A stretch of DNA of 55,529 bases from Betaproteobacteria bacterium TMED22 (GTDB lineage: Bacteria; Pseudomonadota; Gammaproteobacteria; Burkholderiales; Eutrophovitaceae). Under the pieces are notes generated by a model, which was given only the letters and a program-made list of their open reading frames with translations, had not been told where the DNA came from and did no database searches. Of this stretch, positions 1,785 to 42,772 are shown piece by piece. A program made the position numbers and the translations under genes. Each line of letters begins with the position of its first letter. Position 1 is the first letter of the stretch. The stretch lies in contig NHCB01000006.1 in assembly GCA_002167745.1 (NCBI GenBank), positions 131,577 through 187,105 of the forward strand, written 5' to 3'.

Positions 1785-2750
1785 TTATCTGCCCATTTCA
1801 ACTACGACACCCGGCTTAGACCTTAGCCTTGGAACTGGCTTAGATGGTTTACTAGGGTGCAATAAAGGAATCTTTACGAACTCATCTTTGATAAAATCAA
1901 CGAACAATTTGACTTTACGAGGAATCAATCTTGTTGAAGGATAAACAGCTGAAATCCTGATCGGATCCGGAGCATAATCGTTCAAGATTGAGACTAAAGT
2001 ACCATTCTCTATTTCCTCCTTAACAAGTAGAGCAGGGATCAAAGCAATGCCCACACCATTAATTACAGCATCTCGAATTGCGTATCCGCTATTTGCTCTA
2101 AAATTACCTCCGACTTTTATAGATACAAGACCGTTGGCATCACGAAAGGGCCAGACGCTCGAAAAAAGATGTGTGTACGTAATGCAGTTATGGATTTTTA
2201 GTGCGTTCGGAGTTTGAGGCACACCGTGTTGCGATAAGTAAGATGCAGACGCTACGCAAACCCGCGCACTACTCCCGATATGTCGGGCTACTAACTGAGA
2301 ATCCTCGAGCTCGCCGAATCGGATAGCCACATCGAATCCCTCCTGAACAAGATCAACGTAGCGGTCATCTAAAGACAAGTCGACTCCCATCCCCGCAAAC
2401 TTATTTCTAAATGCAAGTAGTAACGGAAGCATATAAATTTGACCAAATGCCACGGGACTGCTAATGCGAAGGGTACCAGTTGGCTTATTTTGTAGGCCAA
2501 GTACCTCCGTTTCTAGCTCGTTAACGTCATCAATAATTCTCTGACAACGCTGAAAGTATTCTCTACCTGCATCCGTCAATGAAATTTTTCTCGTGGTTCG
2601 GTTCAATAACCGAACTCCAAGGCTTTGCTCGAGTCTATTCATGTGCTTACTGACGGAAGGTTGTAGCATATCCTGCTCCCTCGCAACAGCAGAGAAACTT
2701 CCAGTCTCGACAATACGAACAAACAGCTTCATTAACTTGAATCTATCCAC
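1785..2750 (-). CDS. LysR-family transcriptional regulator
   Basis: DNA-binding regulator of 321 residues. The N-terminal winged helix-turn-helix covers about residues 1-60 (SFSAVAREQDMLQPSVSKHMNRLE) and is followed by the LNRTTRKISLTDAG wing typical of the DhmR/AaeR-like LysR branch. A periplasmic-binding-protein-like effector domain fills about residues 90-295. The basic, proline-rich tail after residue 300 is longer than usual. The start is a GTG; an AGG lies seven bases upstream, and family members begin with the same MDRF..M..F pattern. LysR proteins often control a divergent neighbour, but here the upstream side carries only the two predicted small RNAs. It may control itself, those RNAs or distant genes. 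The effector is unknown. Confidence 0.93.
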   Translation of the reverse strand: MDRFKLMKLFVRIVETGSFSAVAREQDMLQPSVSKHMNRLEQSLGVRLLNRTTRKISLTDAGREYFQRCQRIIDDVNELETEVLGLQNKPTGTLRISSPVAFGQIYMLPLLLAFRNKFAGMGVDLSLDDRYVDLVQEGFDVAIRFGELEDSQLVARHIGSSARVCVASASYLSQHGVPQTPNALKIHNCITYTHLFSSVWPFRDANGLVSIKVGGNFRANSGYAIRDAVINGVGIALIPALLVKEEIENGTLVSILNDYAPDPIRISAVYPSTRLIPRKVKLFVDFIKDEFVKIPLLHPSKPSKPVPRLRSKPGVVVEMGR

Positions 2751-2851
2751 AATATGACCTATATATGAAAATAACGAATATATAATACCTAATTACAATT
2801 ATTAGTTTATATAAAAGAATATAAAGATATAAAAAATATTTAAGATATGTA

Positions 2852-2878
2852 TTGACGCATCGCAACAATTGCTATAAT
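2852..2878 (+). promoter_or_regulatory. Predicted sigma-70 promoter of small RNA 1
   Basis: A -35 hexamer TTGACG (2852-2857) and a perfect -10 hexamer TATAAT (2873-2878) are separated by 15 bases. A TG one base before the -10 (2870-2871) makes it an extended -10. The short spacer is compensated by the extended -10. Transcription would start at about 2885, four bases before the first hairpin. No protein-coding gene lies between this promoter and the terminator at 2928-2955, which is why an RNA gene is proposed. Confidence 0.7.
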
Positions 2879-2884
2879 GTTTTA

Positions 2885-2955
2885 ATTGTTCTCTTTAATC
2901 TCCTCCTCCAAAAAAGAGAAATTTTATAAGCCCTCCCTTGTGAGGGCTTTTTTTT
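2885..2955 (+). ncRNA. Predicted small RNA 1 with anti-Shine-Dalgarno loop
   Basis: A transcript of about 71 nt is predicted between an extended -10 promoter and an intrinsic terminator. It holds a perfect 8-bp hairpin, TTCTCTTT (2889-2896) with AAAGAGAA (2913-2920), whose 16-base loop displays CCTCCTCC (2902-2909), complementary to ribosome-binding sites. The terminator hairpin follows after seven bases. A near copy lies 240 bases downstream. This architecture (CCUCCUCC loop, then terminator, tandem copies) recalls the CcsR/cuckoo small RNAs of Alphaproteobacteria. The likeness is in design only; homology was not tested. No open frame of note overlaps it. A role in blocking translation initiation or titrating a regulator is inference. 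Confidence 0.75.
2928..2955 (+). terminator. Intrinsic terminator of small RNA 1
   Basis: Perfect 8-bp stem AAGCCCTC / GAGGGCTT (2928-2935 with 2942-2949), a 6-base loop, then a run of eight T residues. This is a strong rho-independent terminator on the plus strand. Confidence 0.9.
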
Positions 2956-3123
2956 GTTACGCAACATAATAGTAATTATTTGGTATGTTGAAAGCACTTC
3001 ACAATAAAAGTCATATATATTCCAAATGTGAATATATTATATTCATCTGGTCTATATTGTATTACTTTAAGAATAAAATTACCATTCAAAACGTGGCATA
3101 CACATCGAATCCTTGTGGGTTTG

Positions 3124-3198
3124 TCATGATATCTCTTTAATTACCTCCTCCCTAAAGAGAGATCCCTTAGCCCCCCACTCCCCCTGGGGGGCTTTTTT
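3124..3198 (+). ncRNA. Predicted small RNA 2 with anti-Shine-Dalgarno loop
   Basis: Second copy of the same design. The 8-bp hairpin TCTCTTTA (3132-3139) / TAAAGAGA (3153-3160) carries a 13-base loop with CCTCCTCCC (3144-3152), followed by a strong terminator at 3169-3198. The hairpin region matches small RNA 1 closely (CTCTTTAAT, then CCTCCTCC, then AAAGAGA), while the flanks differ. The stem bases differ between copies but pairing is kept, which supports a folded RNA. The 5' end is uncertain: no convincing sigma-70 promoter is seen 30-50 bases upstream, so it may use an alternative sigma factor or be cut from a longer transcript. Confidence 0.7.
3169..3198 (+). terminator. Intrinsic terminator of small RNA 2
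   Basis: A 9-bp GC-rich stem AGCCCCCCA / TGGGGGGCT (3169-3177 with 3185-3193) with loop CTCCCCC, followed by six T residues. The C-rich loop and stem add further potential ribosome-binding-site complementarity. Confidence 0.9.
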
Positions 3199-3265
3199 CA
3201 GGAAAGTAAATAAGTGTTTAAGAGGCGTTTTGGGCTAATCGCAATTTCCGGTAAAAATAACTAAA

Positions 3266-3556
3266 ATGGCATCAACCCTCAATATTTATGGGGCAGTTTC
3301 AAGAATAGTTGGCATATTTAAACGCACCAACAAGACAAAGTTTATGGCAGAAGTATTTGGCTCGAGTTCAATTATAAGAAATAGAATCGCAGCTCTAACG
3401 GAAGAGCACCGCGGTCTTGACGGGGCTGTCAGCGCCTTGATTGAATCGCATAAACCCGACGAATTACACTTAAAGCGAATGAAGAAACGCAAACTTTTGT
3501 TAAAAGATGAGATTCTTCGACTCCAAAAAATGTTAGTGACTGACGTACCCGCATAA
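3266..3556 (+). CDS. YdcH/DUF465 family protein
   Basis: Small helical protein of unknown function (DUF465/YdcH, SlyX-like). The signature is at the C-terminus: HRGLDGAVSALIES, then DELHLKRMKKRKLLLKDEI, which forms an antiparallel coiled-coil pair in this family. Usual length is 65-75 residues, and this frame gives 96. Residues 1-26 may therefore be untranslated, with the true start at the ATG at 3344 (70 residues). Neither start has a strong ribosome site. The gene follows the terminator of small RNA 2 by 67 bases, so it probably has its own promoter, and it ends in a bidirectional terminator shared with ilvD. The family is common in Proteobacteria but its role is not established. Confidence 0.85.
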   Translation: MASTLNIYGAVSRIVGIFKRTNKTKFMAEVFGSSSIIRNRIAALTEEHRGLDGAVSALIESHKPDELHLKRMKKRKLLLKDEILRLQKMLVTDVPA

Positions 3557-42229: not shown

Positions 42230-42772
42230 ATGGGACGCTACCTTGCCAGAGCAATAAGCATCATCCTACTCATTCACGCGCAATCGGTTGTTGCGGCTAA
42301 TGCACCTGAATTAAACGTTAAACATGCCGTAGTCATTGATGCTCCAGCGGAAAAAGTCTGGGAGATTGTGAGCGACTTCGGCGGCTTGCATCGCTGGCTT
42401 GTTTTTATCGAAGACACAAAGATCATACTAGGCAAAAATAGAGAGCAAGGTGCCATTCGTTTACTGACTCGTCGCAATGGAACAAAAGTTGAAGAACGAC
42501 TCGTTGAATATGATCCTTACAGGATGACCGCCTCTTACACATATGTACAAGGCCAGCCGCTATCAAGTGATTACTATTCAACAATGACAGTTTTAGGGTT
42601 AGACGATGGTCGATCACAGGTTGAATGGAAAGCCACCTTCAAGCGCCTACACTACTGGATGGATACCCCGCCAATTGGAAAGGATGACGAGACTCTCGTG
42701 AAAATCTTGAATAAAGTATATTCGGTCGGCCTTCAAGCAATGAAGGAAAAAATTGAGTCAGGGATTCTATAA
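42230..42772 (+). CDS. Secreted SRPBCC-fold protein
   Basis: 180-residue exported protein. The ATG at 42230 follows GGAG at five bases and gives the signal peptide MGRYLARAISIILLIHAQSV up to about residue 23. A longer frame to the left overlaps the synthetase gene and is not used. The SRPBCC/polyketide-cyclase-like fold is seen in VVIDAPAEKVWEIVSDFGGLHRW and VEWKATFKRL, and the family includes lipid- and MxaD-like proteins. The bound ligand is unknown. Confidence 0.87.
   Translation: MGRYLARAISIILLIHAQSVVAANAPELNVKHAVVIDAPAEKVWEIVSDFGGLHRWLVFIEDTKIILGKNREQGAIRLLTRRNGTKVEERLVEYDPYRMTASYTYVQGQPLSSDYYSTMTVLGLDDGRSQVEWKATFKRLHYWMDTPPIGKDDETLVKILNKVYSVGLQAMKEKIESGIL

Follow-up and report, generated by a model that had tools for sequence, protein, structure and literature searches.

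Two small-RNA-like units stand in tandem beside a divergent LysR-type regulator gene in Betaproteobacteria bacterium TMED22, and each carries an anti-Shine-Dalgarno (anti-SD) motif in a hairpin loop that is closely followed by an intrinsic terminator. Probably, these units are trans-acting sRNAs that mask Shine-Dalgarno (SD) sequences and are switched by the LysR protein, working like AbcR1/2 with LsrB/VtlR. By kind they are anti-SD sRNAs, and we do not claim membership of the AbcR group for them. From its sequence, the combination of regulator gene and RNA seems to be a gene-control switch, as yet unnamed, of a kind known from other bacteria.

The stretch of DNA that we analysed (the window) is 55,529 nt long, and both units are found in the 515 nt that separate the LysR gene from a DUF465 gene (Table 1). 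Their hairpins have CCUCCUCC in the loop, with a terminator 7–8 nt after each (2889–2949 and 3132–3193), and the motifs of the two copies are spaced 242 nt apart. In copy 1, a stem of 8 bp (2889–2896/2913–2920; TTCTCTTT/AAAGAGAA) closes a loop of 16 nt, and the linker to the terminator is 7 nt long (ATTTTAT). In copy 2, the stem is also 8 bp (3132–3139/3153–3160; TCTCTTTA/TAAAGAGA), the loop has 13 nt and the linker 8 nt (GATCCCTT). The z-scores of the minimum free energy were −3.97 for copy 1 and −4.55 for copy 2, and none of 200 shuffles folded equally well. The predicted fold of sRNA1 consists of two stem-loops, the first of which holds the anti-SD in its loop, while that of sRNA2 has extra leader stems and the anti-SD within a loop. 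These results agree with the preliminary description of this DNA, which had reported two sRNA-like units with anti-SD loops and terminators in a host that it took, correctly, to be betaproteobacterial. The loop of the copy 2 terminator (3169–3193) is itself C-rich (CTCCCCC), as it is, similarly, in other copies of the same genus, and is a possible second pairing site.

Table 1. Coordinates of the features at the locus, in positions of the window.
Feature	Position	Strand	Basis and remarks
LysR-type regulator gene	1785..2750	-	Pfam HTH_1 and LysR_substrate; divergent from the sRNAs, presumed controller
Imperfect LTTR-type dyad GAATATATAATACCT	2776..2790		by eye; GAATATATAATATTC in G007
GAATATA half-site	2817..2823		alignment of 7 genomes; ~67 nt upstream of presumed sRNA1 start
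Promoter P1 (TTGACG, 17 nt, TAATGT)	2852..2880	+	pattern picked by eye from alignment; start near 2887
sRNA1 (predicted, ~70 nt)	2887..2956	+	folds, terminator search, alignment; anti-SD hairpin, then terminator
Hairpin 1, loop AATCTCCTCCTCCAAA	2889..2920	+	identity 0.73 over 2888–2920
Intrinsic terminator 1	2928..2955	+	hairpin 2928–2949, then T-run
Perfect 15-bp dyad GAATATATTATATTC	3030..3044		centre ~55 nt upstream of presumed sRNA2 start
Promoter P2 (TTGTAT, 17 nt, TACCAT)	3057..3085	+	pattern picked by eye from alignment; start near 3092
sRNA2 (predicted, ~108 nt)	3092..3199	+	variable leader, anti-SD hairpin, terminator
Hairpin 2, loop ATTACCTCCTCCC	3132..3160	+	mean pairwise identity 0.86 over 3131–3161
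Intrinsic terminator 2	3169..3198	+	hairpin 3169–3193; loop also C-rich
DUF465 gene	3266..3556	+	

The motif CCTCCTCC is found six times in the window versus 0.99 times expected, and none of 100 shuffles reached six. The genome has 50 exact sites. At 11 of these a stem of at least 6 pairs surrounds the motif, and TTTTT follows downstream in three of the 11, namely copy 1, copy 2 and L037. At L037, the T-run comes straight after the hairpin, without a separate terminator hairpin, and the combination of loop motif and separate terminator hairpin is present only at copies 1 and 2 among the 50 genomic sites. The plasmid collection that we searched gave no match.

Of the eight other genomes that represent the genus, six had the region in a blastn search of 100 genomes (own genome included), and one of the six (G003) was matched by the copy 2 part only. 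Here, copy 1 (L057:1744–1815) has decayed, with a loop reading CTCCTACT and the terminator gone, and copy 2 still folds. On the sequences, this suggests that the two copies may be partially redundant. In G001, copy 1 sits at the end of a contig (L153) whose last ~50 bases resemble a sequencing adapter, presumably Nextera, so that G001 informs on copy 1 only. G005, a genome 64% complete, had no LysR match. That fold and loop are conserved, as the preliminary description had supposed, is borne out by the retention of the pair in six congeneric genomes besides this one, with copy 1 decayed in one. In the alignment of seven genomes, the mean pairwise identity was 0.77 and 0.73 in promoters 1 and 2, 0.73 and 0.86 in the hairpins, 0.83 and 0.78 in the terminators, and 0.90 in the dyad region (3028–3045); the other measured stretches had 0.39–0.53, save the linkers (0.78 and 0.67) and positions 2957–2970 (0.68). 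The tandem pair was seen in this genus only, and elsewhere there is one motif cluster per locus (nine loci, 700 nt inspected).

The two window copies have a 7-bp stem core in common (TCTCTTT/AAAGAGA). A compensatory change between their hairpins can therefore not be claimed from these two copies and was rejected, and the earlier statement that the copies keep pairing with different stem bases does not hold. The terminators of the two copies do covary. Within the genus, hairpin 1 varies little: of 14 pairs, five are altered on both sides, and three of these belong to the terminator and two to the hairpin. The stems differ by lineage (TTCTCTTT, CTTCTTT, TCATCTTT, TTCTTCT, ATAAGGTTCGT and CCACGTAA), and all are paired. 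Nine distinct stems had 63 of 63 inner pairs, versus a mean of 41 with reshuffled arms and none as high in 20,000 trials, in a test that favours pairing through its choice of arms from folds. In a fit of 19 sequences to the model, changes on both sides were seen in 11 of 14 pairs versus a shuffled mean of 4.5, a count that leans to structure because the alignment follows the model. Judging from these sequences, the covariation that supports the hairpin appears to come mainly from outside the genus.

The divergent LysR gene, which the preliminary description had overlooked, is the best guide both to the regulation of these RNAs and to their relatives. It adjoins the pair in the same-genus loci that were fetched, and its linkage to the hairpin extends to other genera and a second family. 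Its nearest PDB chains are 3hhg_A (2.6e-55) and 3mz1_A (1.5e-49), then 3t1b and 3szp; we take 3hhg to be CrgA, and 3szp and 3t1b to be AphB. With LysR as anchor in two overlapping sets of 120 and 399 genomes, and with orthologs defined by E 1e-110 or better, we found an ortholog in 19 genomes: eight of the genus, G009, G010, G011, G012, G013, G015 and G016 of the family, and G038, G084, G127 and G165 of a second family. The copy of G004 is a fragment cut by a contig end. G012 was set aside because its upstream region has only 86 nt, which left 18 assessable orthologs.

By eye, a hairpin with an anti-SD loop stands upstream of LysR in 16 of these 18, across two families: 8/8 in this genus, 4/4 in genus g4, 1/1 in g3 and 3/4 in the second family. 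The hairpin of G013 (g4) is without a terminator arm, in G084 the motif immediately precedes a hairpin instead of lying in its loop, and no anti-SD hairpin was seen upstream of the ortholog of G009. A strict scripted pattern (a 7-nt motif in a loop on at least 6 pairs, then a terminator) was applied to 12 of the 18 regions, including two of this genus. It passed in nine of the 12, failing in G013, G009 and G084, as compared with one of 6000 dinucleotide shuffles and none of 19 other LysR genes (20 homologs, 19 with upstream DNA). Paired stems and loop, which the preliminary description had looked to related genomes for, were found in the genus and, with LysR, in a second family.

An ORF of 49 codons ending in FPYLP separates the anti-SD hairpin from the LysR box at three LysR-linked loci of the second family (L161, L177 and L178, in G038, G127 and G165), and from this position the RNA there may constitute the 3' portion of a small mRNA. 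CcaF1-CcsR is a precedent for such an sRNA. The L178 version of the ORF had no Pfam match, and G084 has a shorter relative of it. At L180, L181, L184 and L185, LysR homologs with a similar box stand in divergent orientation to a gene whose product looks secreted, and by eye no sRNA is present.

A promoter-like pattern precedes each unit. TTGACG-17-TAnnnT (P1; first box TTAATG in G003) and TTGTnn-17-TAnnAT (P2) are both present in 7/7 genomes, counted on the same alignment from which they were picked by eye. A generic promoter scan gave nothing on the sRNA strand, neither P1 nor P2. LysR-type regulators commonly bind dyads of the sort seen here near −65. The imperfect dyad upstream of copy 1 occupies the place of GCATGAATAATATTC in genus g4 and lies beyond a scan of the perfect dyad with three mismatches. 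The dyad upstream of copy 2 occurs in perfect form nowhere else in the genome, and it is similar to GAATATATAATATTC and GCATGAATAATATTC, which relatives have upstream of their first unit. With up to two mismatches it was no commoner in the genome than its reversed control (7 versus 9 per strand), and with up to three mismatches it showed no enrichment in the window. From these sites we infer that LysR may control both copies. A second dyad, GAATAAAGTATATTC (42709–42723), is one mismatch off and was rejected as a regulatory site since it lies inside an open frame.

In the mechanism that we propose, the LysR protein would bind the dyads upstream of each sRNA promoter, and would set the transcription of the two tandem sRNA genes, directed away from its own gene, in response to a signal. 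Each sRNA would end in a terminator whose U-tail suits Hfq, for which the genome has an hfq gene (101.5 bits), and would display CCUCCUCC in an open loop. CCUCC-rich loops can pair with SD sequences. The loop would pair with GGAGG-type SD sequences of several mRNAs and block ribosome binding. Ribosome-binding-site targeting, which the preliminary description had raised, seems the likeliest mode of action. SD masking by this design is shown for AbcR1/2 (PMC8844928) and for NmsR (PMC5362039), and SD pairing is predicted for ncS27, with growth effects (PMC5688073). In nine genomes, a perfect GGAGGAGG stands 2–10 nt before ATG in 61 cases versus 40 in the reversed control, and perfect-complement targets were rejected on this comparison; the enrichment is mild, and we therefore name no target. 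Of the five cases in the own genome, one heads a frame of more than 14 codons (222 codons, L204).

The closest parallel is with AbcR1 and AbcR2 of Sinorhizobium, Agrobacterium and Brucella, which are likewise tandem sibling sRNAs beside a LysR gene, where LysR activates AbcR1 and Hfq is involved (PMC8844928, PMC7486931). The first anti-SD of AbcR1/2, which is CUCCUCCC-like and lies in a 5' hairpin loop, has its counterpart in CTCCTCCTCC of copy 1 and CCTCCTCCC of copy 2. In contrast, a second anti-SD (UUCCCCUC) lies between the stem-loops of AbcR1/2, whereas the window linkers are without it. AbcR1/2 are alphaproteobacterial RNAs of 114–121 nt, unlike the shorter betaproteobacterial RNAs of the window, and AbcR2 uses RpoH1 in S. 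meliloti. The window locus further differs in that its LysR gene is divergent and has 3hhg as nearest solved relative, and in the dyad-like site before each copy. The VtlR/LsrB box GCAT-N3-TG-N3-T is not matched by the window sites GAATATATAATACCT and GAATATATTATATTC, and by eye only G015 fits it among the LysR-linked regions. The name AbcR is absent among the 30 Rfam matches listed. Among the open-licence PMC papers listed in our searches, none appeared to describe an anti-SD sRNA linked to LysR from a betaproteobacterium.

Two further systems resemble the locus in part. NmsRA and NmsRB of Neisseria (NgncR_162/163) are tandem sibling anti-SD sRNAs of betaproteobacterial origin that lower the expression of TCA-cycle enzymes (PMC5362039). 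They differ in having three stem-loops and one anti-SD placed between stems SL1 and SL2, while the window anti-SDs sit in loops; moreover, they lie near lrp, are linked to RelA, and are 70% alike as siblings. The CcsR/cuckoo RNAs (RF02344, ar14) have CUCCUCC in wide hairpin loops and a terminator, and the likeness in design that the preliminary description had pointed out is real. Their model, however, is alphaproteobacterial with two anti-SD hairpins, and scored 30.7 and 30.2 bits here versus a gathering score of 58.8. Matches to Phe_leader, tsr31, MicC and other Rfam families were below cut-off and were judged chance or a shared terminator. The suggestion of a new family finds support only in that no Rfam family reaches its gathering score in the window; double-hairpin sRNAs with an anti-SD have been described before, from betaproteobacteria (ncS27/BdhR1 and S17 of RF02278) and from Neisseria (NmsR).

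Possibly, although we consider it unlikely, the two units are unrecognised members of RF02278 that diverged in an AT-rich lineage, with LysR as a local addition. This is a claim about kinship, and the mechanism would be much alike. RF02278 (ncS27/BdhR1, ncS05, ncS62 and Bordetella S17) has the same overall plan of short hairpin and terminator RNAs with an anti-SD in the same class of bacteria; ncS62, ncS05 and ncS27 measure 57–92 nt, overexpression of ncS27 slows growth, and S17 binds Hfq (PMC5688073, PMC11722255). The best RF02278 match in G002 is copy 1 (26.5 bits), and the model built in this analysis also finds RF02278-like loci elsewhere (L220 and L225). Among 100 relatives, 32 have an RF02278 match above the cut-off, but none of the 17 of this family does, and the model scored only 20.4 and 20.0 bits on the window against a gathering score of 50. 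The anti-SD is also placed otherwise: the RF02278 layout has an unpaired UGUCUCC at the 5' end, a UCCUCC loop on an 8-pair stem made partly of anti-SD bases, and a terminator, of which only the loop anti-SD, here in a wide loop, and the terminator are found in the window. Of 30 RF02278 loci, none had this LysR gene in the flanking DNA that was fetched, nor the DUF465 or IlvD gene, and ten LysR-linked loci (L153–L157, L160–L162, L177 and L178) gave no RF02278 match at E 0.5.

Our own models show how far similar RNAs extend. Model R1, searched against 17 genomes of the family, yielded three additional weak matches in the own genome (E 0.03 to 0.36), the best of which (L134) is a hairpin with terminator without the anti-SD motif. 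Model R2 matched 18 of 399 genomes of the order at E 0.01, ten of this family and eight others. One locus was viewed by eye in each of the eight outside genomes; all eight show an anti-SD-type motif within or at the loop, and this LysR gene was absent from them, as were the DUF465 and IlvD genes. These matches indicate that RNAs built to this general plan are common in the order. Three loci of family f2 (L223, L224 and L226, in G066, G186 and G110) have an anti-SD-loop hairpin with terminator and the loop TTCCTCCTCCTT, and G066 has two R2 matches. At L219 (G400, family f38) a strong hairpin (TGTATCTTT...AAAGATACA) with loop CCTCCTCCTCC is followed by a terminator. Neither the f2 loci nor L219 are beside this LysR.

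It is improbable that the units act in cis, as a leader or attenuator that terminates transcription prematurely before the downstream gene. In the window, copy 2 ends ~66 nt before the DUF465 gene, and copy 1 gives weak Phe_leader matches (31.5 bits here, at most 37.5 in relatives, cut-off 55). However, in six relatives ~420–840 nt separate copy 2 from the matched part of DUF465, and this greater distance makes a cis-leader function unlikely. Open frames of 47–94 codons (the longest per locus) cross the motif in 4/4 loci of g4, but they are unlike each other and have the motif in different phases, and we take them, on their sequences, as probable chance. G010 has no frame of at least 25 codons, and no ORF of at least 60 aa overlaps either copy in the window. 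A protein-titrating decoy of the CsrA/RsmE type, which the preliminary description had also considered and which two hairpin units in tandem might suggest, is very improbable, as GGA, the core of the CsrA site, is absent from both predicted RNAs (2887–2956 and 3092–3199).

Returning to LysR-switched, SD-masking sRNAs, we tentatively suggest, with slightly more doubt than trust, that a betaproteobacterial module of LysR and anti-SD sRNA, spanning at least two families and four genera, reached the same layout as the alphaproteobacterial LsrB/VtlR-AbcR module by independent evolution, and that the sRNA was later duplicated in tandem with its own LysR site. The LysR gene offers an anchor for finding short, fast-changing RNAs where a covariance model fails, as is apparent from the RNA of G165, which was found via LysR and gave no match to model R1 at E 1, even with filters off. 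The locus provides small-genome marine betaproteobacteria with an anti-SD sRNA group that has a named candidate regulator, and it lends itself to a clear test of whether LysR-driven anti-SD sRNAs have evolved repeatedly. If so, a LysR switch driving a loop-displayed anti-SD RNA would be a recurrent regulatory solution, and the variable stem and constant loop would show that the loop alone is the effector.
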